Below, piece after piece: positions 1 through 13,594 of a stretch of DNA of 13,594 nt. The stretch lies in contig JAIOPF010000083.1 of assembly GCA_021414045.1 (NCBI GenBank), positions 1-13,594 on the forward strand, in the 5' to 3' direction. The DNA comes from Deltaproteobacteria bacterium. Its GTDB lineage: Bacteria > UBA10199 > DSSB01. How positions within the stretch are numbered: the first letter of the stretch is position 1; each line of letters begins with the position of its first letter. Under the pieces are notes generated by a model. It saw nothing but the letters and a program-made list of their open reading frames with translations, made no database searches and was not told where the DNA came from. The translations under genes were made by a program, and so were the position numbers.

Positions 1-447
1 GGCCTTCTTCATTTTCATGCGAACGACGGTGCCGTTGTCGAATTCCGTCTCCAAACCGGCGACGCGTTCCCCGAGAATCTTCTGCACCGCCTCGGTGCGC
101 AGCTTCTCGGCCGCCTGGAAGGCGCGGGCGTCTTTCTTGAATTGCAGGTATTGTCCCAGTTCTTCCTTGCTGGCATCGCGAACCTTCTCCCCGTTCACAT
201 CCACCAATTGGAACTTTCCCTTGTCCTTGGGATCGGGCAGGATTCTTTGGCCCTTCTCGAAGCCGCTCCGCAGCTCTTGCTTGGCGGCTTGCTTTTTTTG
301 GTAACCCTGGAAAGACTCGAGATCTTCTTTGGTCGGAGGGGTTTTCGTCTCGACCACGGCATCGGTCTTAGTGTCGTATTTCTCAATCCCGATCACTGCG
401 CCATCCTTGCGCTTCGCCTCGCGGAACCCAAACCCCTTGTCGAATTC
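1..447 (-). repeat. C-terminal imperfect repeats of giant 1 (F-[DE]-[KN]-G units)
   Basis: Three units begin EFDKG (Phe1780), GFEKG (Phe1841) and EFDNG (Phe1914), spaced 61 and 73 residues apart. The first two also share a middle and an end: a V/I-rich strand with a D/N-G or D-T-K turn, then a helix of the type KE[DE]Lxx[FY]xxxxK followed by a Lys/Ala/Gln-rich stretch. The third unit is cut by the window edge, so the array probably continues. The match is degenerate and was found by eye; the function is unknown. Confidence 0.45.
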
Positions 448-3400
448 GGCGACGCGAGCTTTTTCCCGGCCCTGAAAGGCCTTTTCTTGTTGTTGCTGAA
501 GGGCGGCGGCAGCTTGGTCATCGGATTTCTTTTTGGCATCATCGACGCGTTTTTGAGCGCTTTTCTGCTGCGCATCGGCCTGACGCTGGTCTTCCTTCTT
601 TTTCGCATCGATGGATTTTTTTCCAGGAACAAAGTCGTAGCCCGAACCCGATTCGTTCGGAACGATCTCGCTTTGTCCGGCCTTGACTCGTTTGGCTAAC
701 GTCTGGGCTAGTTTTGTGTCGAGCTTCCCCTCGGCGATTTCAAGCAGCAGCCCTTGACGCACTTGGTCTTGTTTGTCCTTGGGCAAATCCTTCAGTGCAG
801 GCTCGAGGATCTTCATGGTGCCTTGAGCTTCAGTGAGGAATTTCGCTGGATCGAACTTCGGGTCGGCGACGATGCGTCCTTGAATCGCTTTCATGACCGG
901 GGCCGAGGTCTCTCCTACACCCACAGCGGCGTTGAACTTCGGCAGTTCGGAGTGAACCTGCATGATCTTTGCGGTATTGGTTTCGATGCGGGTTAGCTTC
1001 CCATTTGTCACTCCATCGATAATTTTTCCGCCAACCTTCATTTGAGCGTCGGTGACGGCACAGCCGAGGAATTTCATCCAAAAAGGAACGCCCTTTTCGT
1101 CGGCCTTGAGACCCAGCGATTCGTTGACATATTCCGCGCCGGTGAAGGCAGCGACATTGCCCACCCAGCCCACTCCCTTCGCCATCTTTTCGAAGGCCAT
1201 TGCGCGGTTGAGGGCGCTCTCGGCGGCCTCGACCCCTTGGCTGGTTTGCCTGGCGACCTTCAGCGCCTCTTGCGCCTCGAGCACGGACCTTTCGGCTCGC
1301 CCGGTGAACTTACTGAGAGGAATCCCGGCGCCATGCAGCAACGTGAAGGTCACCAGCATGGAAAGAAATTCTTTTTTGAAATGCTCCGGCTGCCAATGAT
1401 CCACCTTGCCGGTAAGGGCGGTCGTCAGGAGCGCTCCGGCAACGGGAAAGGCCGCGGCTTCGGTAACGGTGCGCACACCGAATTTCGTGACCCCCATGAT
1501 CACGGGAGATTCAATGACCGTAGCCATTTTAGCTACCCAAAGCGCTTCCGCTCCCACGGCAAGGCCGCGGGCGATGCCAAAGGAGCCAATCGAGATGAGG
1601 GAATTTACCATCGCCTCGTTGGCTTCCGCCTCGGAACCAGCGAAGAAAATCATGCAAAAGGCTCCGGGAGGAGTCGCGCAGGCAAGTCCCTTGAGGCCCG
1701 AAAAAATCGCGCCCATCTTGACCCACTCGGGAATCTTTTCATCGATGATCTTTTTCGCCTCCGCACCGACATAGGGGTTGTCGACCATGAATTTCGCGAT
1801 CTGACCCGCGTTGCCGTAATAACGCTCCCCTGCCAGAATCAAGCCGTCGGACAGTTTTATGGCCGCCTCGGCGGCGTCCTTGTCGCTGACATTGGGGTCC
1901 GCCATCACGGTGATGGCGGCCATTATCTTGCCTTGCGGATCGTTGGGCAGGGAATCGTTTCCGGTGGAGATCAAATTGCTTTGAATATAGCCCTGCACCG
2001 CGGCTGGGGCCTCTCGAGCGGCTTTCGTCAGGGCATCCCGGAAATCGGTGGCTTTGCCGTCCAACATCAGGGTCTTAGCCTTGTGCAGGACGTCGTCGAT
2101 GCCCTGCTCCATCAAGGCTTGCTTCTCCGGAGACATGTTCTTTTCTTCGAGACTGAACAGCCAGGACCGCGCAATCTGCATGGATTGATTAATCCGCAAT
2201 TCCCGTCCACCCGCGCTTATCCCCCGCAACAACTCCTGCGCGGTCTTGTTGTCGGGCAGTTTTTCCAACTCCGCCCTAGCTTTATCAGTGTCGCCGTTGT
2301 TCAAATGGATCATGCCCTGGGCGAGGGTTGCCAGATCTTGCACGTCCAACGGGTAAGCGCCGGTATTCATCTGGGCGGCCCGATAGAGGATACCGTTGGC
2401 TTCCTTGTTCATTCCGGCCATTGTGTAGATTTGGGCGATGCTGAAATCGAGGCCGATCTTGTCGGAAGGGGTCGTGAGGCCCGCTTCGAAGACCTCCACT
2501 GGACGCATGGCCTCCTTCACCCGATCCTTACAACCGATTTGCGCGTAAAGCGCGGCGGCTTGCAAATATCGCTGGGTACCGGTCGGGTCGAGAGGGCCTC
2601 TCGCTTTGGCATCAGCCATGAGTTTGCGGGCATTTTGCGCGGTCTCGGCGAATTGGATCAGCTTTTTTGGATCCAATTGCGAAGCCCAGATCATGTTGCC
2701 ATCTTCGATGTCGAGCTTGAGTCGCCCCTTCATGTCGCTGACGACGTCGGCAGCCATCTTTTTGTCTTCTTCGCTGGCGCCTGGCCCTTGCTCCATGCAA
2801 TCCGCGAAGATCTCGCTCATCGTTGTTTCAAATTTGCCGTTGACGCTCGAGATGTCCTCGGGTTTGAGCAGCGGTTTATCGCCCTGAGTGAGGATCTTTA
2901 AACGGCCCAAGCTAGCCGCAATCTTAGTGCCTTCAGCCAAGCGCTCATCGACCGGCAGATCCTTGGCTAGGGCCAGCTGATCCTGCCAAATCCCGATATG
3001 GTCGGCTATCCGCTTCATATCGTCAGAAACCAAGGCCCGATCGCTTTCGGGACGTTTTCCCTCGGAGATCTCCTGGACGATCTTCGCCGCGGTGTTCAAT
3101 TTACCGCCCATCCGCTCGAGATCGATCTGCACCACCAAGCGCGCGGTCTCGAGGCGTTCCTTCGCCTTGGCCGGATCGCTTGCCAACTTGGGATCGGTGA
3201 ACATGGGGTCCGCGAGCAATTCTCCTTGGATGCCGGAAAGCCGCAAGGTCGCGGTGGTGGCGTTGGGAATGTCACCGACGCTGTCGCAAAAGGCCTTGGC
3301 CACCATCAGTTCTTTAACGCGCTCGGCTCCGTGCGGCGGCCCCATATTTCCGCGTCCGATGATCTCGACAGCGAGCGCGGAACCCTTATCTTGGTACTCT

Positions 3401-5781
3401 TTGGTGAGGGTTGAGTTCTTCCCATCTTCGACGGTGACCCTGGAATCTTTTAACACCCCGGACATCAGGCCGTAAATCTGGAGTTTATCCACCCTCGACA
3501 TATCCGCGGGGATGGTGGATTCCAACTGGCCGGCGATCTCGCGCGCTTTGGCATTGTCGCCAAGCGCGCCAAAGTGCTTGAGCGCCTCGAGGAGGCAGCC
3601 GCGTTTTTCCTTCACGTCGGTCTTTTTTCCGGCTTCGGCGAGCGCCTTGTTGCCGGCATCGACTTCGGTCTCGAGTTTTTTCAAGCCCTCGGCGGAGAGC
3701 AAGTCCAGCACGGGCCCGCTCCCATTCATGACCACCTGTTCCAAGTAATCCTTCGCCTTGCTGGAACTGAGATAATCTTGCGCCAATTCCTGAATCTGAC
3801 GTCCAATGGCGTCGGTTTCGGAGGTACGCCCCCCTTGAGCACGCAAGGCACGATAGACCTCGCCATAGGCGTCTAGCTTGGCCTTGGCGTCCATGACGTC
3901 GGGCGTTGCCGACTTGACCAAATCGTTATAACGAAGCAGATCGCTGAGGTCGCCATAACTTCGACTAATCTCCGCCGCGGTCTTGGCAGCGTCGAGCTGC
4001 TCGAGAGTTGGCGCTTCGCCACTCTTTACCCGCGCAACCTCTTTCAGGTCGTCACGCAAGGTTTCGATCCGTTTGTCGAGCTTATCGAGGTCTTCCTGGG
4101 CGTGCCGAATGTCAATGCTGTCGGCACCCGGCCGCTTCACCTCGGCCGCAAAAAAATCGCGTTGCCGCTTGAGGACCGCGAAGCGCTCCATGTTGGTGGC
4201 CTTGGGACATTCCGACATTTCATCGAGGAGTCGTTGCCGCTCATCACGGCTCCCGCCCCCTTTTAGGCCGTCATAGACCTTGAGCAGGTCGGCCAAATGC
4301 ATGCTACCCGCTTTTCTACGCAACCCGTCGACCTCGGTAATTTTTTCGGGGCTCCTCAGAGAAACTCCGAGGCCGTTATCCCATTGATCGAGAGCCGCCA
4401 AGGCCTTCTTCGGCTCGCCGGCGCCGAGTTGCGCGCGCGCGAGATCAAGCAGCACCTCGGTGTTCATCGGCTGGCGGCGACGCACCTGTTCAAAAGCATC
4501 GGCTGCATCCGCGAATTTTCCCTCCCGCATCAGCGCCTGGCCGAATCTCAGGCGACGTTCGACGTTGTCACCGTCCAAACCCACCGCGATGCGCAAATGC
4601 GTCGAGCATAGCTGTTTGTCCTCGGGCCTGTCGCTGCGCGCGAGCTTCTTTGCCTCGGCGGCGTGGTAATCCGCCATGGCCTGCGAAAAACCTTTTTCCT
4701 TGATGTCCTTTTTCAATCCGGGAGGAATCTCGAGCTTCGACGTTTTCAGCGCTCCCTGAACCTTTTTGGAGTCGTAATGTTCGTTGATGTAGCGCAACAC
4801 GTCCCCTGGCCAGATCTTGTCGTCGGCGGGATGCTCGGCCTTGCCGTCGGCACCCTTTAGGGCGGCATCGGTGATCCCTTGCTTGCGCAATGCCTCATAA
4901 AGTTCCTGCACCACAGGATTGCTTTTACCGTCGAAGCTGCGCGAATAGGGCTTGTCGACGCCATCGAAGGCATGAAAAAATCTCAGGTAAGTTTCTTTTT
5001 GCTTGGGGTCGGTGGCCTCGTTGACGGCCAACGTATACATCGCCCTGGCTTCGTCGAAGCGGGAGCCTTTGATCAAGTGAGCGGCGATGAAGAGATAGGG
5101 GTCTTGCATCTCGTCGAGCAGCTCGGGATGCGGGTATTCTTTTAGATCCTTGAGGATCTGTTGCACCTGCTCCGTCGTGGCGTTTTCGACGGCAATCCCC
5201 AGCCACTTAGAAGCGTCCTTATCGCTCAAATGTCCCACATTCAGAGCGACCAGCTTCTGGGCCAGGTCGTATTTCACTTTTGCAAATTCCGGGTTTTTGC
5301 CCTGCTGCGTATCGATGTCGCCGATAAAGCCGAAGGCCTCCTCGAGCTGAACCTTGCGAACATTCACGTCCTTGGTCTGTCCGTTCCACTCCAACCATAC
5401 CTTGGCCGTCTCAAGGCGGAGCTTTTCGTCTTTGGGATCAAGGGAAATAGCCCGCTTCAACAGGCGGGCGGCGGCGCCGACGTCGGTACCTCTGCGCTTG
5501 TCGGCCTCGGCCTTGATGAAATCCTTGGCGGCCGAGAGCTTTTCGGGTTTGATGTTGCCCTTTTCGTCGACCATGTCGCCGGGGAGCTTGACTCCCATGC
5601 TACTGACCTCGGCGGTGATTTTTTTCAGTTGCGCATCATCGGGCGGAGCGGCGGAAGGTGCCGGAGACTTATGATCTTCGGTTAGAACTTGCTTTTGGTC
5701 CTCGGTGAGTGGAGCCGGAAGCGGAGTAATATCTACGGGGGAAGTACCCGATTTTACGTTAGGAGTAGCACCGTCACCCAT
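1..5781 (-). CDS. Giant TPR-like helical-repeat protein with central hydrophobic module (giant 1), C-terminus cut by window edge
   Basis: One reading frame is open for 1927 codons with no stop and runs off the left edge, so the protein is longer than what is seen. The ATG at 5781 has an AAAAGGGG ribosome-binding site about 9 bases upstream. Residues 1-50 are Pro/Ser/Thr-rich and probably disordered; there is no signal peptide. Residues ~50-1340 are almost entirely helical with TPR-like pairs, clearest at ~228-260, 408-467 (REGKFADAADAFEQV) and 1108-1180 (NNGDTDKARAELEKL). A glycine-rich hydrophobic region (~1350-1590) resembles one in the 1130-residue protein upstream. A charged Lys/Gln/Ala coiled coil follows (~1725-1787), then repeats beginning F-[DE]-[KN]-G. 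I recognise no enzyme motif. Known TPR proteins act as scaffolds or partner-binding platforms, so a scaffold, or a large exported or membrane-active protein, is possible; function is unassigned. A small gene (6191-5922) precedes it and is probably its partner. Confidence 0.9.
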   Translation of the reverse strand, partial: MGDGATPNVKSGTSPVDITPLPAPLTEDQKQVLTEDHKSPAPSAAPPDDAQLKKITAEVSSMGVKLPGDMVDEKGNIKPEKLSAAKDFIKAEADKRRGTDVGAAARLLKRAISLDPKDEKLRLETAKVWLEWNGQTKDVNVRKVQLEEAFGFIGDIDTQQGKNPEFAKVKYDLAQKLVALNVGHLSDKDASKWLGIAVENATTEQVQQILKDLKEYPHPELLDEMQDPYLFIAAHLIKGSRFDEARAMYTLAVNEATDPKQKETYLRFFHAFDGVDKPYSRSFDGKSNPVVQELYEALRKQGITDAALKGADGKAEHPADDKIWPGDVLRYINEHYDSKKVQGALKTSKLEIPPGLKKDIKEKGFSQAMADYHAAEAKKLARSDRPEDKQLCSTHLRIAVGLDGDNVERRLRFGQALMREGKFADAADAFEQVRRRQPMNTEVLLDLARAQLGAGEPKKALAALDQWDNGLGVSLRSPEKITEVDGLRRKAGSMHLADLLKVYDGLKGGGSRDERQRLLDEMSECPKATNMERFAVLKRQRDFFAAEVKRPGADSIDIRHAQEDLDKLDKRIETLRDDLKEVARVKSGEAPTLEQLDAAKTAAEISRSYGDLSDLLRYNDLVKSATPDVMDAKAKLDAYGEVYRALRAQGGRTSETDAIGRQIQELAQDYLSSSKAKDYLEQVVMNGSGPVLDLLSAEGLKKLETEVDAGNKALAEAGKKTDVKEKRGCLLEALKHFGALGDNAKAREIAGQLESTIPADMSRVDKLQIYGLMSGVLKDSRVTVEDGKNSTLTKEYQDKGSALAVEIIGRGNMGPPHGAERVKELMVAKAFCDSVGDIPNATTATLRLSGIQGELLADPMFTDPKLASDPAKAKERLETARLVVQIDLERMGGKLNTAAKIVQEISEGKRPESDRALVSDDMKRIADHIGIWQDQLALAKDLPVDERLAEGTKIAASLGRLKILTQGDKPLLKPEDISSVNGKFETTMSEIFADCMEQGPGASEEDKKMAADVVSDMKGRLKLDIEDGNMIWASQLDPKKLIQFAETAQNARKLMADAKARGPLDPTGTQRYLQAAALYAQIGCKDRVKEAMRPVEVFEAGLTTPSDKIGLDFSIAQIYTMAGMNKEANGILYRAAQMNTGAYPLDVQDLATLAQGMIHLNNGDTDKARAELEKLPDNKTAQELLRGISAGGRELRINQSMQIARSWLFSLEEKNMSPEKQALMEQGIDDVLHKAKTLMLDGKATDFRDALTKAAREAPAAVQGYIQSNLISTGNDSLPNDPQGKIMAAITVMADPNVSDKDAAEAAIKLSDGLILAGERYYGNAGQIAKFMVDNPYVGAEAKKIIDEKIPEWVKMGAIFSGLKGLACATPPGAFCMIFFAGSEAEANEAMVNSLISIGSFGIARGLAVGAEALWVAKMATVIESPVIMGVTKFGVRTVTEAAAFPVAGALLTTALTGKVDHWQPEHFKKEFLSMLVTFTLLHGAGIPLSKFTGRAERSVLEAQEALKVARQTSQGVEAAESALNRAMAFEKMAKGVGWVGNVAAFTGAEYVNESLGLKADEKGVPFWMKFLGCAVTDAQMKVGGKIIDGVTNGKLTRIETNTAKIMQVHSELPKFNAAVGVGETSAPVMKAIQGRIVADPKFDPAKFLTEAQGTMKILEPALKDLPKDKQDQVRQGLLLEIAEGKLDTKLAQTLAKRVKAGQSEIVPNESGSGYDFVPGKKSIDAKKKEDQRQADAQQKSAQKRVDDAKKKSDDQAAAALQQQQEKAFQGREKARVAEFDKGFGFREAKRKDGAVIGIEKYDTKTDAVVETKTPPTKEDLESFQGYQKKQAAKQELRSGFEKGQRILPDPKDKGKFQLVDVNGEKVRDASKEELGQYLQFKKDARAFQAAEKLRTEAVQKILGERVAGLETEFDNGTVVRMKMKKA
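1012..1500 (-). other. Shared hydrophobic module, copy in giant 1 (residues ~1428-1590)
   Basis: This segment of giant 1 is rich in Gly, Ala and large hydrophobic residues and could form several membrane-associated or tightly packed helices. It contains, in order, TEAAAFPVAGALL, then HWQPEHFKKEFLSML, then HGAGIPLSKF, a helical insert (~1495-1530), and VAAFTGAEYVNESLGL followed by a C-terminal helix. The same order and spacing occur in giant 2 at residues ~436-580 (EGGAFGTMQLAQ, LTTEHILKVYASNL, GGLKQFGNLSAKY, MVATNQLNQKLGL). Identity is low, so homology is likely but not proven. Confidence 0.5.
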
Positions 5782-5797
5782 GGGAAAAGACCCCTTT

Positions 5798-5816
5798 TGA
5801 TACTAGTCAAGTATCA
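5798..5816 (-). other. Inverted repeat just upstream of the giant 1 start
   Basis: TGATAC and GTATCA form a perfect 6-base stem around a 7-base loop. It ends 17 bases before the ATG at 5781, next to the AAAAGGGG ribosome-binding site, so a folded leader could affect access to that site. A separate 10-base palindrome, CCGATATCGG, lies at 5846-5855. Stems this short can arise by chance; no protein or ligand can be named. Confidence 0.3.
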
Positions 5817-5884
5817 GCGGAAAGCCCAAGCCCTCGAGCCCCCTACCGATATCGGCTGAATTCTAGCATCTTGTTGCGTGGATA

Positions 5885-5906
5885 AAGAATCGGAAAATCG
5901 ATTCTT
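5885..5906 (-). other. Perfect hairpin between the small gene and giant 1
   Basis: AAGAATCG and CGATTCTT form an 8-base perfect stem with a 6-base loop, starting 15 bases after the small-gene stop codon (5922-5924). On the transcribed strand it is followed by a mixed TTTATCC rather than a long T run. It is therefore not a convincing intrinsic terminator; it could be a weak attenuator or an mRNA-stabilising or processing stem. The equivalent gap in the other small-giant pair also holds a perfect hairpin (10028-10050). Confidence 0.45.
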
Positions 5907-5921
5907 CAAGTGGGATTATGC

Positions 5922-6191
5922 TTAAGAAGCCGCCAACTTAGCCTGCAAACGAGCGCGAACCTCTTCAAAACCGGCAAAAAAGCGGAGGGAGCCGCTAGAA
6001 CGAAGCTCCACGGCCGGTTTTTGACCTTCCGAATTGAAACGGGGGGCCACGGTGGCTCCCTCATGATCCTGCTTCGAATCCTCTAAGTTAGCACTGCGGC
6101 GAAGGACGACGGGATTGCCACGATCGTCGTAATTGATGAATTCTTCGTATTGAGGAACCGACTTACCGACTTTGTTATCTGACTTTTCCAT
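5922..6191 (-). CDS. Small partner-type protein, copy 2 (89 aa), preceding giant 1
   Basis: No known family is recognised. The 89-residue product has two conserved ends: EEFINYDDRGNPVVLRR at residues 16-32 and FFAGFEEVRARLQAKLAAS at 71-89. Between them lies a polar, variable linker. The first block looks like a beta hairpin (YDDRGNPV turn), the second like an amphipathic helix rich in Arg and Lys. The paralogue at 10084-10335 matches at 11 of 17 and 12 of 19 positions in these blocks, which supports both genes being real. An in-frame GTG at 6236 would add 15 residues. The ATG at 6191 is chosen because GAGGCAAGGG lies just before it and because it aligns with the paralogue start. There is no signal peptide or membrane segment. 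It lies 140 bases before giant 1, suggesting a chaperone, adaptor or regulator of that protein; this is inference. Confidence 0.82.
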   Translation of the reverse strand: MEKSDNKVGKSVPQYEEFINYDDRGNPVVLRRSANLEDSKQDHEGATVAPRFNSEGQKPAVELRSSGSLRFFAGFEEVRARLQAKLAAS

Positions 6192-6455
6192 ATCCCTTGC
6201 CTCTTTCCCTTGACGCTTGTTCACATGAACCGTCACTTAAGGTAGGAATAGCAAGGCATGTGCCATGGAATGAATTTTCACTTCTATTCTTATATATTAA
6301 TAAATTCAATGGTTTATACTATAATTTGTCTCAGACTATCACCACCCATTTCATGGGTTTTCGCAAAAAATGGGGTCAAAGTTTACATTACGGGAACAAT
6401 TTTTGACCGTGCTTTGTGCACACTCCTACTTTCGCAGGTCTCACCCAACTCACCC
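6192..6455 (-). promoter_or_regulatory. AT-rich intergenic region upstream of small gene copy 2, likely promoter region
   Basis: These 264 bases hold no convincing gene. Positions ~6270-6340 are far more AT-rich than the surrounding coding DNA and contain TATAAGAATA (minus strand, 6294-6285), about 95 bases before the small-gene start. A near-identical TATAAGTATA lies upstream of the other small gene (10402-10393). No good -35 box at standard spacing was found, so the sigma factor is not assigned. Two dyads also lie here: ACCCAT-TTC-ATGGGT at 6344-6358, and GGTCAAA/TTTGACC at 6374-6380 and 6402-6408 with a 21-base spacer. Either could be an operator or part of the giant 2 transcript end. No terminator with a T run was found for giant 2. 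Confidence 0.35.
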
Positions 6456-9400
6456 TTACCTGCGGATCCGTTCTCGCGTCGGCACCTCGCGAGCTCGGGA
6501 TTCCTCCTCGGCCTCCATTTCCATTTCGGAACGGTATTCTTTCTCTAGATTTTCCTTCGAGCCCGGGGGAACGGAAGCGGCTGGATTGGATTGGGTGGCT
6601 ACTCGTACCCGCTTCGGAAAGGGATCTTCCGGCAATTCGGGAATGGATTCCCTCATCCAGTTCAGCTCTCGCGTGAAATAATAGAGGCTCCCAAAAGTGC
6701 CGACGAAATTCACCAAGCCCAAGGCGCTCGAAAAGGGGCTCGATAGGTCCGCCGTCGATAGCAGATAGCAATTGCCGATAAAGGAGATTCCCGACACCGC
6801 GGTCCACAGCATTTGCTTGAGCACGTTTTCCTCGTGCAACATGACGCCGGCCTTGATGTCGACCACTTCCCCTTCTTGAAACACGCCATCGGCGCGCACC
6901 TGCTTCCTGGCCAATTTCGCGCGCACGACGTTTCCCGAGGTGTCGAATCGAACCGGGAACCCCGCGGCGCAATCGACGCCCTGAATTTCTCGCCCTTCCC
7001 CCAGCGCCACGAATTCCAAGCGAGCGTCGGCGTCGAAAAAGAGTCGGTCGCCGTGGCCGTACTCGATGCCGCCGAACGCGCAGGGTTCGCTCGGGCGAAT
7101 GGCGTAGAGCCTGCCCTTATCCGAATAGAACAAGCGGGTGCCGGCGGGAAGGATATCCGCGCCCAAGCGCTTTTCGACCTTCAGATCCACGGCGCTCGGA
7201 ACTCCGTTCACGTGCCGGCTGGTGGTTTCCACTTCGTCGAGATGGAGGTTGCCTTGCTTCCGCACCGGACCGTCGGGAAGTTGCAGATCCAATAAATCGG
7301 TGACGCCTCGGGGCTTCCATTTCACCATGCCCCACATTCCCACACCGAGGACGGCGGTCATGAGAAATCGAGGAAAGCTGACTTCGGCATTCGTCGCGGA
7401 AAAAGCCTCCACGGCCGCCTGGGCATGTTCAGGGCCAAGCAGAGCGCCAAGACCGAGGCCCAAGCCGAGAATGGTCGTGATCGATTTTCCAGAGCCCTCC
7501 TCCATCTTGGCCTTGGTCTCCGTGGGTTTCACCCCGTCTGTCTCGACCTTCGATTTAGAGCTCGATTTGATTTTTCCGAATATCCGCTTCGCGAAATAAC
7601 CCAGACCGAACACCGCGCCTATCGCGACGATCATGCCCATCTCGGTGGGACCCATGCCGGCGGGTCCGCCCTCTCCGGCTTGGGCCGTTTCGGGAATTCC
7701 CAGGCAAGCGAGAAGCGCTGCCTTAGCAAAGGTCTCACCTATCTTTTCCAGATCCTCGGCCCAAGGGCCAGGGTCGGATTGGCCTTGGATCTCCTTCGCA
7801 TCCATGCCGAGTTGATCGAGGTTCGTCCCAAATCCCTTCGCATAGCCTTCCGCTTCGGCGATTTTTCCTTCTCTCAGCAAACCGCTGAGTTTGCCCGCGT
7901 CGAAGCCGGGCTTCGTCAGGGATTCTCGGATCAGTTGAATGTAAAGTTTTTGAGTCTTGGCGTCCTTGAAGATGGGTGTTCCGTCCTCCGTTCGTTGCGG
8001 GGCTTCGTAACCCAGGGATTTCAGATTCGCCTCGATGATCAGCGCCGTATTCAATTCGAGGATTTTTTGATGGATCTCCTGGCTCTTCGCCTCCAACTCC
8101 GGCCCCATCAGGCCGCCCAAGCCCTTCTGCGCGATGCCGTATTTCAGATAACTAAAGGCGTCGTGGGCTAAGGACTCAAGGAAACCTCCCTCGGGCGTCT
8201 CACTTAAGCCCAGCTTTTGGTTCAGTTGGTTAGTCGCCACCATGCCGCCGAAGCCGGCTACATGATTCATGGAGCCGACGAGGATCTCTCCGCCCTTGGA
8301 CAACTCCTCGCCGCCCCCCTTCACCATTTCCAAGGCCCTGGCGGCCCGCGGCGCGTACTTCGCGCTCAAGTTTCCGAACTGCTTGAGCCCGCCGATCATG
8401 ATCAGGTTGGAGGCGTAAACCTTGAGGATATGTTCCGTTGTCAGCGATTTTTCGACGTCGTGGTTCGCGGCTTCCTGCGCCAGCTGCATCGTCCCGAAAG
8501 CGCCGCCCTCGGCGAGCGCCTCCGCGCCGAAGGCCAGCGCCGTCGCCTTGTAACCGGTGATTCCCGCTTCGCTGAGCTTGGTCAGAGTCGCCAGTTTCGC
8601 CAAGGCACCGAGGGTCTGGCAGCCCTTCATCACCAGCACTTCATAAGCAACTTCGTCTAGGCTCGTGGTGCGAATCATGTCCCAGAGCCTGGCTCCCACT
8701 CCCTTGCCCTGTTCCAGACCGTTCATTTTTTCCGCACTGGTATTTTTCAAGTGGTCGCTGGCGGCCGTCTCACGGAGCAACGAGTACATCGCATAGGCCG
8801 TCTTGACTCCGAACCGGGCCTCGCATTGGTCCGCGTCGCGCAGCAGATCTTCCCCGTTGCCCACGTCCAGCTTGGAATCCGAGACATAACGAATCATATG
8901 GGCGATGACATGAGACCCATCGTCAGCCCCGATACGGCGCTGTGCCAACAACTCGTGGGCCCGCGGTTTCAGCCTAGGATCTTCGATGTTCAACAAGGCA
9001 TCGTCGATGGTCTTCTCTTTCCCGCTCAGCAGCTGTTTGCGTACCGCCGAGATGAGGTCCTTTTCGATCCTGATCTTCTCGTAGACGAAATCGTCGCTGG
9101 TCTTGCCTTCGACGAGCTTGGTGATCATTCCCGAGGCGACGCCCCCCATCCCGTGGGCCTCGTCGAGGGCCTTCTCTTGCCCTTCTTCGATGAAGACTTC
9201 CCAGGCATAAAGCGCTTTCAAACTGCGGCCGCGGATCTCGTCGGACTTCATCCGCTTCACGATATCCCAGGCTTCGCCGAAGTCGGCGCGAAGTACCGTG
9301 AACGCGGCCTTGGCGCCGTCGAAATCCCCTTGGGCCAATTGACGGTAAGCGCCGTAGAGCGGCGCTCGTTTTTTAATCTCCGAGTAGTCGCTGTTGCCAG

Positions 9401-9848
9401 ACACTTTTTCCAAAAGCTCGTAGGTGCGCTCCGCCAGGAGCTGGGCAGCATTCCCATCTTCCCGCGCTCCCAATTGCAGATATTGTTGGGCTAAGGCCTC
9501 GACCTTTTTTAGCTGTTCCAATCCAGTTTCCGCATTCTCCGGTAGGGAGTCGACTAGCTCGCTTTCCAACTTATCCAAGGCCTTGGATTCCTTTTCGTAA
9601 AATTTCTCAGGATCGTCCGACGAAACCTCCTCTTCCGATTTGGCCGCCGATAAGGGCAATGCGCCCGCGAGTCGTACCGCCAAGGGAACTAGGTTCAGCA
9701 CCGGAATAACCTTCGCCAGGACTGGAAAAAAATCCGCGGGTGTCTTGTCCGAAGGCGGAACTCGGGATGGTGTCGCCGGCGGATTCGGCGACTTGACTTG
9801 GCTTGATTGAGTTTGGAGCTTAGGATTTTTTGAAGCGATTGCCGTCAT
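6456..9848 (-). CDS. Giant multidomain helical/membrane-like protein with beta repeats (giant 2, 1130 aa)
   Basis: A complete frame from the ATG at 9848, with CAGGG just upstream, to a TAA at 6456. Residues 1-40 are Ser/Thr/Pro-rich and disordered-looking. Residues 38-68 are hydrophobic but preceded by too long a polar stretch for a normal Sec signal. Residues ~75-400 are helical and TPR-like (AQGDFDGAKAAFTVL at ~172-186). The glycine-rich module shared with giant 1 spans ~436-580. Residues 702-762 and 786-846 look like a duplicated pair of hydrophobic segments. Residues ~899-1009 form a beta repeat array resembling MORN-variant (YwqK-like) repeats. Two hydrophobic helices follow (~1011-1032 and 1040-1060), then a highly charged tail ending in ERIRR. 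No catalytic motif is recognised. The composition suggests a membrane-associated or membrane-inserting protein; secreted effector, pore or envelope scaffold are all possible. It follows small gene copy 1 and is probably expressed with it. Confidence 0.92.
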   Translation of the reverse strand: MTAIASKNPKLQTQSSQVKSPNPPATPSRVPPSDKTPADFFPVLAKVIPVLNLVPLAVRLAGALPLSAAKSEEEVSSDDPEKFYEKESKALDKLESELVDSLPENAETGLEQLKKVEALAQQYLQLGAREDGNAAQLLAERTYELLEKVSGNSDYSEIKKRAPLYGAYRQLAQGDFDGAKAAFTVLRADFGEAWDIVKRMKSDEIRGRSLKALYAWEVFIEEGQEKALDEAHGMGGVASGMITKLVEGKTSDDFVYEKIRIEKDLISAVRKQLLSGKEKTIDDALLNIEDPRLKPRAHELLAQRRIGADDGSHVIAHMIRYVSDSKLDVGNGEDLLRDADQCEARFGVKTAYAMYSLLRETAASDHLKNTSAEKMNGLEQGKGVGARLWDMIRTTSLDEVAYEVLVMKGCQTLGALAKLATLTKLSEAGITGYKATALAFGAEALAEGGAFGTMQLAQEAANHDVEKSLTTEHILKVYASNLIMIGGLKQFGNLSAKYAPRAARALEMVKGGGEELSKGGEILVGSMNHVAGFGGMVATNQLNQKLGLSETPEGGFLESLAHDAFSYLKYGIAQKGLGGLMGPELEAKSQEIHQKILELNTALIIEANLKSLGYEAPQRTEDGTPIFKDAKTQKLYIQLIRESLTKPGFDAGKLSGLLREGKIAEAEGYAKGFGTNLDQLGMDAKEIQGQSDPGPWAEDLEKIGETFAKAALLACLGIPETAQAGEGGPAGMGPTEMGMIVAIGAVFGLGYFAKRIFGKIKSSSKSKVETDGVKPTETKAKMEEGSGKSITTILGLGLGLGALLGPEHAQAAVEAFSATNAEVSFPRFLMTAVLGVGMWGMVKWKPRGVTDLLDLQLPDGPVRKQGNLHLDEVETTSRHVNGVPSAVDLKVEKRLGADILPAGTRLFYSDKGRLYAIRPSEPCAFGGIEYGHGDRLFFDADARLEFVALGEGREIQGVDCAAGFPVRFDTSGNVVRAKLARKQVRADGVFQEGEVVDIKAGVMLHEENVLKQMLWTAVSGISFIGNCYLLSTADLSSPFSSALGLVNFVGTFGSLYYFTRELNWMRESIPELPEDPFPKRVRVATQSNPAASVPPGSKENLEKEYRSEMEMEAEEESRAREVPTRERIRR
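6822..7154 (-). repeat. Beta repeat array in giant 2 (residues ~899-1009), MORN-variant-like
   Basis: About 3.5 units of 29-31 residues follow one pattern: a short strand with an acidic or Gly turn, then RLFYSDKGRL / RLFFDADARL / PVRFDTSGNV, then a strand ending in a hydrophobic residue plus Gly (AFGG, EIQG, RADG). Units start near 899, 928, 958 and 989; the last is partial. The F-[YF]-x-[DS]-x-[GA]-x-[LV] core resembles the FYENGKL-type unit of MORN-variant (YwqK-like) repeats. The family assignment is by eye. Confidence 0.55.
7311..7745 (-). repeat. Internal duplication of a hydrophobic-AQA-hydrophobic unit in giant 2
   Basis: Residues 702-762 and 786-846 share one layout. Each has a short hydrophobic helix ending in a signal-peptidase-like site (GIPETAQA; GPEHAQA), a 10-20 residue small or polar linker, a membrane-length hydrophobic helix (GMIVAIGAVFGLGYF; FLMTAVLGVGMWGMV), and a basic flank (AKRIFGK; KWKPR). 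A Lys/Ser/Thr/Glu linker separates the units. Both are internal, so Sec cleavage is not expected unless they act as internal membrane anchors. The duplication is judged from pattern rather than high identity. Confidence 0.42.
8109..8543 (-). other. Shared hydrophobic module, copy in giant 2 (residues ~436-580)
   Basis: This is the counterpart of giant 1 residues ~1428-1590. Matching points include EGGAF versus EAAAF, LTTEHILKVY versus QPEHFKKEF, and VATNQLNQKLGL versus GAEYVNESLGL, each in the same order and followed by a similar helix. The insert between the two halves is shorter here. Both copies sit after a long helical region and before the divergent C-terminal part of their proteins. Confidence 0.5.
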
Positions 9849-9932
9849 GCCCTGCTAAAAAGCAAGCGGGGTGCCAAGAGCAGGAATTGTTCATTTGCTT
9901 GATATTACTGGTATAAATTATTAACTCGGCAA

Positions 9933-9955
9933 TGCGGAAAAATTCACATTCCGCA
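9933..9955 (-). other. Inverted repeat upstream of giant 2
   Basis: TGCGGAA and TTCCGCA form a 7-base perfect stem around a 9-base loop, 85 bases before the giant 2 ATG. No T run follows on the transcribed strand. The region after it (9900-9932) is AT-rich (TAATAATTTATACC on the minus strand) and might contain an internal promoter for giant 2, but no -35/-10 pair at good spacing could be assigned. Confidence 0.35.
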
Positions 9956-10027
9956 AGATTTCAATTTATTCTTCATAAATCCTTCGCCTTCCTTCCCATA
10001 AATCTCGGGAACACAAACCAGACCCTT

Positions 10028-10050
10028 GAAATTCGGACGAACCGAATTTC
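10028..10050 (-). other. Perfect hairpin between the small gene and giant 2
   Basis: GAAATTCGG and CCGAATTTC form a 9-base perfect stem with a 5-base loop, 33 bases after the small-gene stop. On the transcribed strand it is followed by AAGGGTC, not a T run, so it is not a standard intrinsic terminator. It occupies the same place in this pair as the 5885-5906 hairpin does in the other. An attenuation, processing or mRNA-stability role is plausible and would allow the small and giant proteins to be made in different amounts. Confidence 0.5.
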
Positions 10051-10083
10051 GAGAAAGTCCTAACAAGAAAGAATTGGGAATTT

Positions 10084-10335
10084 TTAGGACTGCTGCAGTT
10101 TGCCGCGGAGACGCGCGCGAACTTCTTGCAGGTCGGCGAAGAAACCAAAGGTCCCTTTGGCGGCTGCGGGGGCAGGCTTGTTCTGAGTCGGGGCCTTGAA
10201 GGAAGGCGCGGGCGCCTCGTCCATGCCGGGATGCTCGGTGTTGCGGCGCAAGACGACGCTATGACCTTGAGAATCGTAACCGAGAAATTCTTCGATGGAA
10301 TGAGAAGACGAGGAGGTTTTTGCAGCGGTGCCCAT
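10084..10335 (-). CDS. Small partner-type protein, copy 1 (83 aa), preceding giant 2
   Basis: Paralogue of the small protein at 5922-6191; no known family is recognised. It has EEFLGYDSQGHSVVLRR at residues 15-31 and FFADLQEVRARLRGKLQQS at 65-83, separated by an Ala/Pro-rich low-complexity linker. The ATG at 10335 is preferred because it gives the same N-terminal length before the EEF motif as in the paralogue (14 versus 15 residues). It lacks a strong ribosome-binding site. An in-frame TTG at 10368 has AGAGG only 3 bases away, which is too close. It is soluble-looking, has no signal peptide and is basic at the C-terminus. It lies 235 bases before giant 2 and 148-178 bases after the DUF255 gene, so it probably starts its own transcription unit. 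A role as chaperone, targeting factor or regulator of giant 2 is inference from position and paralogy. Confidence 0.82.
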   Translation of the reverse strand: MGTAAKTSSSSHSIEEFLGYDSQGHSVVLRRNTEHPGMDEAPAPSFKAPTQNKPAPAAAKGTFGFFADLQEVRARLRGKLQQS

Positions 10336-10513: not shown

Positions 10514-12544
10514 TCATTCCGCGAGAAGTACATAGGGGGTGAATTCTTCCAGTTTCTTCAGCGCCACTTCGGCGTCCTGCAAGGGCGCCTCGCAGGCCTG
10601 ATTGCGACAAACATAGAAGGTCGTCTTGCCTCCGCTCGCCATCTTGTCTTGCAGCAAGGGAGGAAAGTTCGAAGGACCACGGGTGGAAGCGACGACTACA
10701 TTGGGATAAAAATGCTCGCGCAGACCGTGCAGGAAGATCTCTCCTTCACCTTCGGCGGCTTCCACCACCGCCACTTCGCTGGAAAGATCGGTAAGCGCAT
10801 CGTAGGCCAGCAATAGCGTGCCAAAGGCCGTAGGATATTCGGAGGCCAGAGGGGCGAAGGCCTCGATGGTTTTGAGCGCCTTGGCGCGATAGGAAGCGTC
10901 CAAAGTCAGGTCGTGCAGGCGCAGCAAATTGGAAGCGCTGACGGCGTTGGCGTTAGGCATGGCGCCGTCCATGCCTTCCTTGCCTCGAACCAAAAGACTT
11001 GCGTCGCTGCCGTCGGTGAAAAAATAACCACCGCCCTCCTCGTCCCAAAATTTCGCATCTTGGCGACCTTGTAGAATCAGGGCCCAGTTCAAGACCTCGT
11101 GCCGAAAATCGCATTGGTAGAGGTCGATCAGCCCTTGAATCAGATAGGCGTAATCGTCGAGCCGACCGGCAAAACGGGCTTCCCCATCGCGGTACCGCGC
11201 CAACAAATCTCCATCGGGAGCGAGATGCCTCTTGAGGAAATCCATCGCGCGGCCGGCCGCCTCGAGATATTTTTTGTCGCCGGAGACTTGGTGGCCCAGG
11301 GCCATGGACCGGATCATGAGACCGTTCCAGGCGGTGAGGATCTTGTCGTCCTTATGGGGATGGATACGCGCCTCGCGCAATCGGAAGAGCTTCTCGCTGG
11401 CCGACTTTAGCAAAGGGTTGTCCTTCTCCGACCAGGCGAATTCCGGGGCCAAGGAAAAGTTATTGGTGCCGTGCTCGAAATTTCCTCCCGGGCTGACCTG
11501 ATAGACCCGGCAGAAGTGATCCAACTCGTCGCGACTGAGGGCTTCGCTCAATTCCTCGAAAGTCCAGACGTAGAATTTCCCCTCTTCGCCTTCGCTGTCC
11601 GCGTCTTCCGCCGAATAAAATCCCCCCTCGGGGTGGGTCATCACGCGCAGGACGTAATCCAAGGTTTCCAGGGCTACTCTCCGGAAAGCTGTCTCCTGCG
11701 TCGCGCGATATGCCTCAAGGTAGGCGACGGCCAATTGGGCGTTGTCGTAGAGCATCTTTTCGAAATGTGGGATCAGCCAGCGTTCGTCGGTGGAGTAGCG
11801 GGCAAAACCGTAGCCCAGGTGGTCATAAATCCCGCCTCGCGCCATCTTGTCCAAGGTGAATTTCACCATCTCGAGGGCGCGGGCCTCGCCGCTGCGCCTC
11901 CAAATACGCAGCAGCATCGAAAGCTGGTTGGCGTGCGGGAACTTGGGCGCCCCGCCGAAACCGCCCCAACGGCTGTCGAAACTCATCAGGCTCTGGCGAA
12001 AAAATTGCCCGAAAACTTCCTCGCTTAAGCCGACTCCTTCGGCCTGGGCGGATTTCTGAAGTTTGAGGAATTCGACGATGGAATTCCCGGTCTCGGTGAC
12101 CTGGGCGGCGGATTCGCGCCAGACCTTCTCGATTTGCCCGAGCAGATTGAGAAAAACGGGCTTCGGCCAATAGGTTCCGCCGTAAAACGGCTTGCGGTCC
12201 GGCGTGAGGAACATGCTGAGGGGCCAGCCTCCGCGCTGTTTCATCGCCTGCAACGCGCTCATGTAGATATCGTCGACGTCCGGCCGCTCTTCGCGGTCGA
12301 CCTTGATGGGAATGAAATCGCGGTTGAGCACCGCGGCCACTTCTTCTTTTTCGAAGGATTCGTGCTCCATCACATGGCACCAATGACAGGTGGAATAGCC
12401 GATGCTTAGGAAGATGGGCTTGTTCTCTTCCTTGGCCGCGCGAAAGGCCTCTTCTCCCCAAGCGTACCAATGGACGGGATTGTCCTTGTGCTGCAACAGA
12501 TAGGGAGACTTTTCGTGAACGAGACGGTTATATTTTTCGGTCAT
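10514..12544 (-). CDS. yyaL: DUF255 thioredoxin-domain protein (YyaL / spermatogenesis-associated protein 20 family)
   Basis: Complete 676-residue protein of normal family length. The N-terminal DsbH-like thioredoxin fold carries the hallmark [18 protein letters not shown] (13-30), the CHWC redox motif (Cys53, Cys56), [15 protein letters not shown] (81-95) and [11 protein letters not shown] (105-115). The rest is an alpha/alpha-barrel resembling six-hairpin glycosidases, with [13 protein letters not shown] (259-271), [17 protein letters not shown] (311-327), [12 protein letters not shown] (399-410) and a C-terminal [13 protein letters not shown] (643-655). The CxxC suggests thiol redox activity, but the substrate is not established for the family. 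It has no signal peptide, so it is probably cytoplasmic. In the GGFxRYS region this copy has GYGFARYS (244-251), with Tyr where Gly is usual. It starts 8 bases after the acs stop, and its GAGGAA ribosome-binding site overlaps the acs TAG, indicating translational coupling. Confidence 0.97.
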
Positions 12545-12552
12545 GGCTTCCT

Positions 12553-13594
<1,042 letters not shown>

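Follow-up and report, generated by a model that had tools for sequence, protein, structure and literature searches.

The window analyzed here, 13,594 bp from a Deltaproteobacteria bacterium and the entire length of contig C78 of its draft genome (G000; 2,607,638 bases in 385 contigs, 84% complete), encodes two small proteins, S1 and S2, each ahead of a giant protein, G1 and G2, respectively. The small-giant order, noted in a preliminary description of this DNA, is real and occurs twice in tandem, with all four genes on the minus strand. The best explanation that we can offer, and one that we hold tentatively, is that G2 and its relatives act as signaling scaffolds for which S serves as a short adaptor. 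Comparisons were made with relatives in the same class (G001, G002, G003, G004, and others), and the class searches covered 46 genomes.

Two further points of the preliminary description, that the small genes are paralogues and that the giants have a common central module, are also borne out. S1 and S2 are identical at 32 of 80 positions (40%; E 2e-15), with one motif around EEF-x-x-YD-x-x-G-x-x-VVLRR and a second around FF-x-x-x-x-EVRARL, separated by a variable stretch. The relationship between the giants is real but distant; BLASTP of G1 against G2 gives no match (best E 2.2), whereas profiles of the G1 group and the G2 group (modules A and B) align over 413 columns with 98.2% probability and an E value of 4e-14, a value that holds for that single profile comparison. 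Read along the minus strand, the contig carries an acs-like gene (cut), a yyaL-like gene, S1, G1, S2, and G2, which runs off the contig edge, as follows.

12553..13593, minus strand: acs-like AMP-binding gene (PF00501, E 2.7e-33), 5' end cut
10514..12544, minus strand: yyaL-like gene (DUF255; PF03190, E 9e-73)
10084..10335, minus strand: S1, 83 aa, with motifs EEFLGYDSQGHSVVLRR and FFADLQEVRARLRGK, 40% identical to S2
9849..10083, minus strand: gap between S1 and G1, 235 nt
6456..9848, minus strand: G1, 1130 aa, no Pfam domain, relatives in its own genome
8052..8852, minus strand: M-type helical module of G1, residues 333-599 (M profile E 4.4e-8)
6192..6455, minus strand: gap between G1 and S2
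5922..6191, minus strand: S2, 89 aa, ATG start at 6191
5782..5921, minus strand: gap between S2 and G2, 140 nt, conserved and non-coding
1..5781, minus strand: G2, at least 1926 aa, 3' end lost at the contig end
4381..4533, minus strand: TPR repeats of G2, residues 417-467 (PF14559, E 9.4e-12)
934..2586, minus strand: G2 central region, residues 1066-1616, whose second half contains a distant M-type module

A search of the window for tRNA genes and Rfam families found none.

Giant proteins and the helical module M

M is an all-helical module of ~280 residues; its structural model is confident over residues 30-320, and a search for structural relatives gave no clear one. The M profile matches the G1 group at 96.3% and the G2 group at 89.1%, and on these profile comparisons the central regions of both giants (residues 333-599 in G1) are distant forms of M, with G2 the weaker case. 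A class search with a 19-row alignment gave at least 53 M matches in G000 (33 of the 53 are among the matches listed, and one gene can give several matches), at least 53 in G002, at least 56 in G001, and at least 54 in G004, together with 40 in G003, five in G007, two in G012, and one each in G015 and G028; the other 37 of the 46 class genomes have none. Scoring covered 53 candidates in each of the first four genomes. When 385 genomes were searched, with the best six candidates per genome scored, the same nine had M, all of them in this class.

The proteins carrying M are diverse in their remaining parts. M is fused to HATPase_c, PAS, a Fis-type HTH, biotin carboxylase, and PadR; to sigma-70 with amine oxidase, a metallo-beta-lactamase fold, GGDEF, HTH_3, and PFK; and, in matches below the cut-off, to a response regulator and a transglutaminase. 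Precomputed Pfam domains are absent from 94 of the 120 listed M proteins, 108 distinct members of which were rescanned, and in the 18 M proteins scanned against Pfam the M region itself is free of matches. The M-PFK fusions (frames of 774 aa in G004, contig C167, and 817 aa in G000, contig C113) are additional PFKs, with separate PFK frames of 343-395 aa present in G001, G003, G004, and G005. M proteins also occur in tandem, with four complete ones in a row on C186 of G000 (L119, positions 726-10044), where the remainder of each copy is different. In five proteins (P0079, P0085, P0120, P0121, and P0132), M is joined in a single chain to a flavin amine oxidase domain and sigma-70 regions, and the end of P0047 is putatively nuclease-like, as judged by eye only.

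G1 and G2 each have relatives in their own genome. The only Pfam models that G2 passes are those for TPR (PF14559, PF13432, PF07719, and PF13428), and no Pfam TPR model is over the cut-off in G1. The nearest relative of G2, a G001 protein of 2699 aa that is also cut, is 41.5% identical over 1693 aligned positions. The complete giants found behind S genes (G004, 4846 aa; G002, 5330 aa) share the N-terminus of G2, and the module is not detectable in either with the M profile. The G004 giant contains PP2C and FHA domains, with TPR matches below the cut-off, and the G002 giant contains TPR, RelA_SpoT, FHA, and PP2C domains. A further giant with RelA_SpoT and FHA domains is present on C273 of G000; it has one PADLOC match (E 5e-8), to a candidate-defense model and over the RelA_SpoT stretch. 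Open frames of 5942, 5655, and 4787 aa, of the same class, lie on C13 of G001, C6 of G010, and C30 of G001, respectively.

The NED and DGMGG motifs of PP2C are kept in five of five rows, among them a pair of close orthologues (G001 and the first copy of G002). The RelA_SpoT domain is absent from the window itself, and those of the giants pass the Pfam cut-off; in the seven family genomes, 13 of 19 RelA_SpoT matches are in open frames of at least 1382 aa. Among the giant RelA_SpoT rows, the three read in frame (L165 and L167 left out) retain most of the conserved synthetase positions (R-x-K, D-x-x-x-x-R, YRA-x-H, and E-I-Q-[IV]-x-T). In five of the seven genomes, a shorter frame, of 438-839 aa, also holds a much stronger RelA_SpoT match (E 1.5e-41 or better). 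Hydrophobic segments of membrane length, as found by a simple hydropathy window only, are present at residues 40-62 of G1, 2948-2970 of the G004 giant, and 1469-1495 and 3763-3784 of the G002 giant.

A copy of the first 630 residues of G1 lies on C103 of G000 (L013, positions 2-4415), in which a frame change is followed by an unrelated C-terminus with repeats (PF02985, PF03130, and PF13646, which we take to be HEAT-type). The two are 81% identical over 637 aligned positions and 68% over the next 59, beyond which they do not align; possible explanations for the copy are a pseudogene, strain variation, and an assembly error.

Small genes and their linkage to giants

The S family is small, with 41 proteins (including those of the window) recovered in a profile search of 5.8 billion proteins that covers proteins of similar length; the named members are from metagenome-assembled genomes (MAGs) labeled Deltaproteobacteria bacterium or bacterium. 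S is present in four of the 46 class genomes, with nine genes in total, and a search of 60 relatives with S2 as the sole query returned the same four genomes and none besides. S1, S2, and G1 have no family match in Pfam, PADLOC, or PHROGs, and NCBIfam gives a single weak match to S2, far under the cut-off. No description of S or M was found in the titles and abstracts of openly licensed PubMed Central papers.

The S genes look protein-coding, as synonymous changes between S2 of G000 and S2 of G001 outnumber non-synonymous ones by 7 to 5 in motif 1 and by 10 to 2 in motif 2; between the S1 genes of G001 and G002 there are 10 synonymous and 19 non-synonymous substitutions. In an AlphaFold2 monomer model of S2 (42 sequences; mean pLDDT 67, pTM 0.27), a confident beta-hairpin (strands 14-20 and 26-32, numbered without the first Met) is joined by a disordered linker to a helix (74-87), and S is thus not predicted to be globular as a monomer. 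Two other ideas on the nature of S were discarded. S is not a credible copy of a repeat unit within the giants (the best E value of the S profile against them is 0.15), and the suggestion that it is a phosphorylated substrate of the FHA/PP2C part was dropped because the serine after VVLRR is not conserved in the alignments.

S genes are frequently followed by large proteins. A large frame lies within 420 nt on the same strand for six of the nine, and five precede frames of 1132 to 5249 aa, as measured to the ends of the fetched stretches. The sixth, on C301 of G000, is followed by a frame of 675 aa (gene of 639 aa) that carries the module (M profile E 2e-101). In G000, each of the three S genes found is followed by a module-bearing protein on the same strand, and a giant with a G2-type N-terminus stands behind an S gene in all four genomes with S. 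The preliminary description had expected most S homologues to precede open reading frames (ORFs) of more than 1000 residues, and the outcome is mixed, with five of nine doing so, one preceding the 639-aa relative, and three neither. Four S-family proteins pair up by their equal longest-contig sizes (P0003/P0007, 2461; P0010/P0029, 16225), each pair having one S1-type and one S2-type protein. If the members of a pair are on the same contig, which is judged from these sizes only, S1 and S2 are close together there, and a G1-sized gene would not fit between those of P0003/P0007.

The non-coding gap between S2 and G2 is conserved. It is identical to that of G001 at 103 of 140 positions (74%) and to that of G002 at 102 of 140, compared with 162/267 (61%) for the whole S2 gene against G001 and 150/300 (50%) for the start of G2. 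Within S2, the motifs are slightly more conserved than the gap (50/63, 79%, and 58/72, 81%), and the linker is identical at 34 of 93 nucleotides. Strong matches to the gap in the seven family genomes are confined to this locus in G000, G001, and G002, and the simplest reading is that it is a putative promoter or operator for the giant. Neither G001 nor G002 has an equivalent of the S1-G1 gap, S1 there having no giant immediately after it. Both gaps had been described as hairpin-bearing, and the S2-G2 gap of the window does fold better than its shuffles (z -2.7; 1/200), but the gaps of the two relatives do not (z -0.7 and +0.3). A conserved RNA was considered and rejected, with two-sided changes at 2 of 41 predicted pairs among three sequences, two of them close. 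The longest helix common to the three gaps is seven pairs, and 54 of 200 column shuffles reach seven or more. Because the relatives fold about as well as shuffles and the common helices are no longer than shuffled ones, a hairpin shared across the three genomes is unsupported.

Another arrangement of paralogous small genes lies on C174 of G000 (L036), where two proteins of 155 and 153 aa (positions 8209-8676 and 12403-12864), 55% identical, precede a 1174-aa ORF and a TPR giant, and ORFs of 595 and 541 aa, respectively. Neither small protein has a Pfam match or a credible match to S.

The proposed scaffold and adaptor weighed against other explanations

We favor, tentatively, an adaptor role of S for the G2-type giant. 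The reasons are that a flexible linker joins two conserved docking-like motifs in S and that every genome with S has a G2-type N-terminus behind an S gene. G1 and G2 would both be drawn from a set of large modular proteins that has expanded strongly and is restricted to one lineage, with the helical module as a coupling part shared among the giants. G2-type giants would be intracellular signaling scaffolds, perhaps anchored in the membrane, with the TPR superhelix gathering partners; the far C-terminal half, off this contig, would contain a PP2C phosphatase and FHA phosphopeptide-reading domains and, in some giants, an additional alarmone-synthetase-like domain. S, encoded just ahead of the giant, may then link it to another partner, its hairpin and C-terminal helix providing two docking motifs on a flexible tether.

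Several observations weigh against this explanation. First, no giant directly follows three of the nine S genes; these three are the S1 orthologues of G001 and G002 and the gene on C162 of G001, where 1.1 kb of contig remains after S and has no module frame. Second, most of the module-bearing frames fetched, which are part of the module family, lack S. Among the 58 module-bearing frames fetched with at least 420 nt upstream, four have an S gene upstream, and among the 27 of at least 1000 aa it is three, leaving 24 module giants without S. A dedicated pairing of small and giant genes, as the preliminary description proposed, is thus partly supported. It fits G000 (three of three S genes with a module protein behind) and the G2-type giant (four of four genomes), and less so the S genes as a whole (five of nine); in the wider module family most of the giants fetched have no small gene, the outcome that the preliminary description had named as refuting. 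Third, the proteins behind S have no one detected domain in common; the module links G1 with the 639-aa protein, and the G002 and G004 giants have the N-terminus of G2 and no detectable module. Fourth, the C-terminus attributed to G2 is assumed, because G2 in the window and its G001 relative both end at contig edges. Fifth, the R of QIRT, present in two canonical rows, is replaced by K or Q in the giant RelA_SpoT rows. Finally, because S follows acs and yyaL in all four genomes that have it, its adjacency to giants may be partly an inherited position.

This last point underlies the chief rival, in which S is part of the acs-yyaL region, a neighborhood that is equally constant. S would be an inherited neighbor of yyaL with a function of its own, such as a small regulator in that region, and its position before giants would have arisen through tandem duplication. 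The yyaL-like gene lies directly upstream of S, with acs before it, in G001, G002, and G004 as in the window (68-81% identity to the window gene for yyaL and 75-86% for acs), and S1 of G001 and G002 stays behind yyaL even without a giant immediately after it. The place that G1 has in G000, between S1 and S2, is taken in G001 by an XRE-like gene together with a second gene, on the opposite strand. Neither acs nor yyaL is present, however, in the 20 kb around the S2 gene on C270 of G002 or the S gene on C301 of G000, which still stand before a giant or module protein, nor in the 4.3 kb around the S gene on C162 of G001. The conservation of the S2-G2 gap also speaks against it, and we hold the inherited-neighbor explanation to be only slightly less likely than the adaptor. 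An XRE-like regulator with a second small gene is found both beside the G1 copy on C103 (L013, 4600-5712) and in G001 (L037, 14845-16020), and is possibly a mobile or toxin-antitoxin-like pair.

A polymorphic toxin-like system, in which a constant region has exchangeable C-termini and the upstream small gene serves in anchoring or delivery, is possible, but there is little positive evidence for it and we think it improbable. The 81% identity of G1 and the C103 copy, followed by diverging C-termini, and the putative nuclease-like end of P0047 are as such a system would have it, and MafA and MafB of Neisseria offer a precedent (PMC3482391). Set against these, M is followed, where the domain behind it can be named, by regulators and metabolic enzymes, and S1, S2, and G1 have no PADLOC match. 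Least probable is that S is a dedicated chaperone that keeps the giant unfolded or guides its export, as the preliminary description suggested; the small gene is directly upstream on the same strand, but the S monomer model has no globular fold (pTM 0.27), a giant is missing behind three of nine S genes, only 3 of the 27 module giants fetched (4 of 58 frames) have S where a small gene beside most clients would be expected, and the full-length relatives carry signaling domains that are usually intracellular.

Known systems and the place of M

Comparison with described systems places M and the giants in context. PMC7159879 describes effector-associated domains (EADs) as small, mostly helical, non-enzymatic coupling domains that recur at an end of many effector and signaling proteins in one genome, with a record of 22 proteins. 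M is similar in that one domain is fused to many different outputs within one genome, those named in G000 including HATPase_c, biotin carboxylase, PadR, and PFK. It differs from EADs in its size (~280 residues), in its number (at least 53 matches), and in having metabolic enzymes among the fused domains. In Neisseria, PMC3482391 describes MafA as a lipid-anchored secreted protein encoded alongside all full-length mafB genes. S and M resemble that arrangement in having a lineage-specific constant region, variable C-termini, and a lineage-restricted upstream gene, and differ from it in that S is upstream of only 4 of the 58 fetched module frames and that no toxin domain was identified among the domains named here.

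Giants with a RelA_SpoT domain resemble alarmone synthetases in sequence, passing the Pfam cut-off and, in the three rows read in frame, keeping most recognized synthetase positions; they differ in having the domain inside frames of 1382 to 5942 aa, some beside FHA and PP2C. At 4846 and 5330 aa, the complete relatives are also comparable to other huge bacterial proteins, whose major clusters, according to PMC11573180, are in peptide and polyketide synthesis and surface attachment, whereas the giants here carry TPR, FHA, PP2C, and RelA_SpoT domains.

A broader proposal builds on the scaffold-adaptor explanation, namely that M is a new coupling module through which a single small lineage of bacteria has connected much of its regulation, and some of its metabolism, to a common platform, the ~5000-residue giants (TPR, alarmone synthetase, FHA, and PP2C) being the hub and S their dedicated adaptor. 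We consider this unlikely. With at least 53 matches in a 2.6-Mb genome and unrelated outputs, M would be a lineage-wide organizing principle, comparable to the coupling domains of conflict systems, although larger in size and extending to metabolic enzymes. A single chain of the giants would combine alarmone synthesis with phosphopeptide reading and dephosphorylation, and S would be a small, testable handle on the G2 giant.

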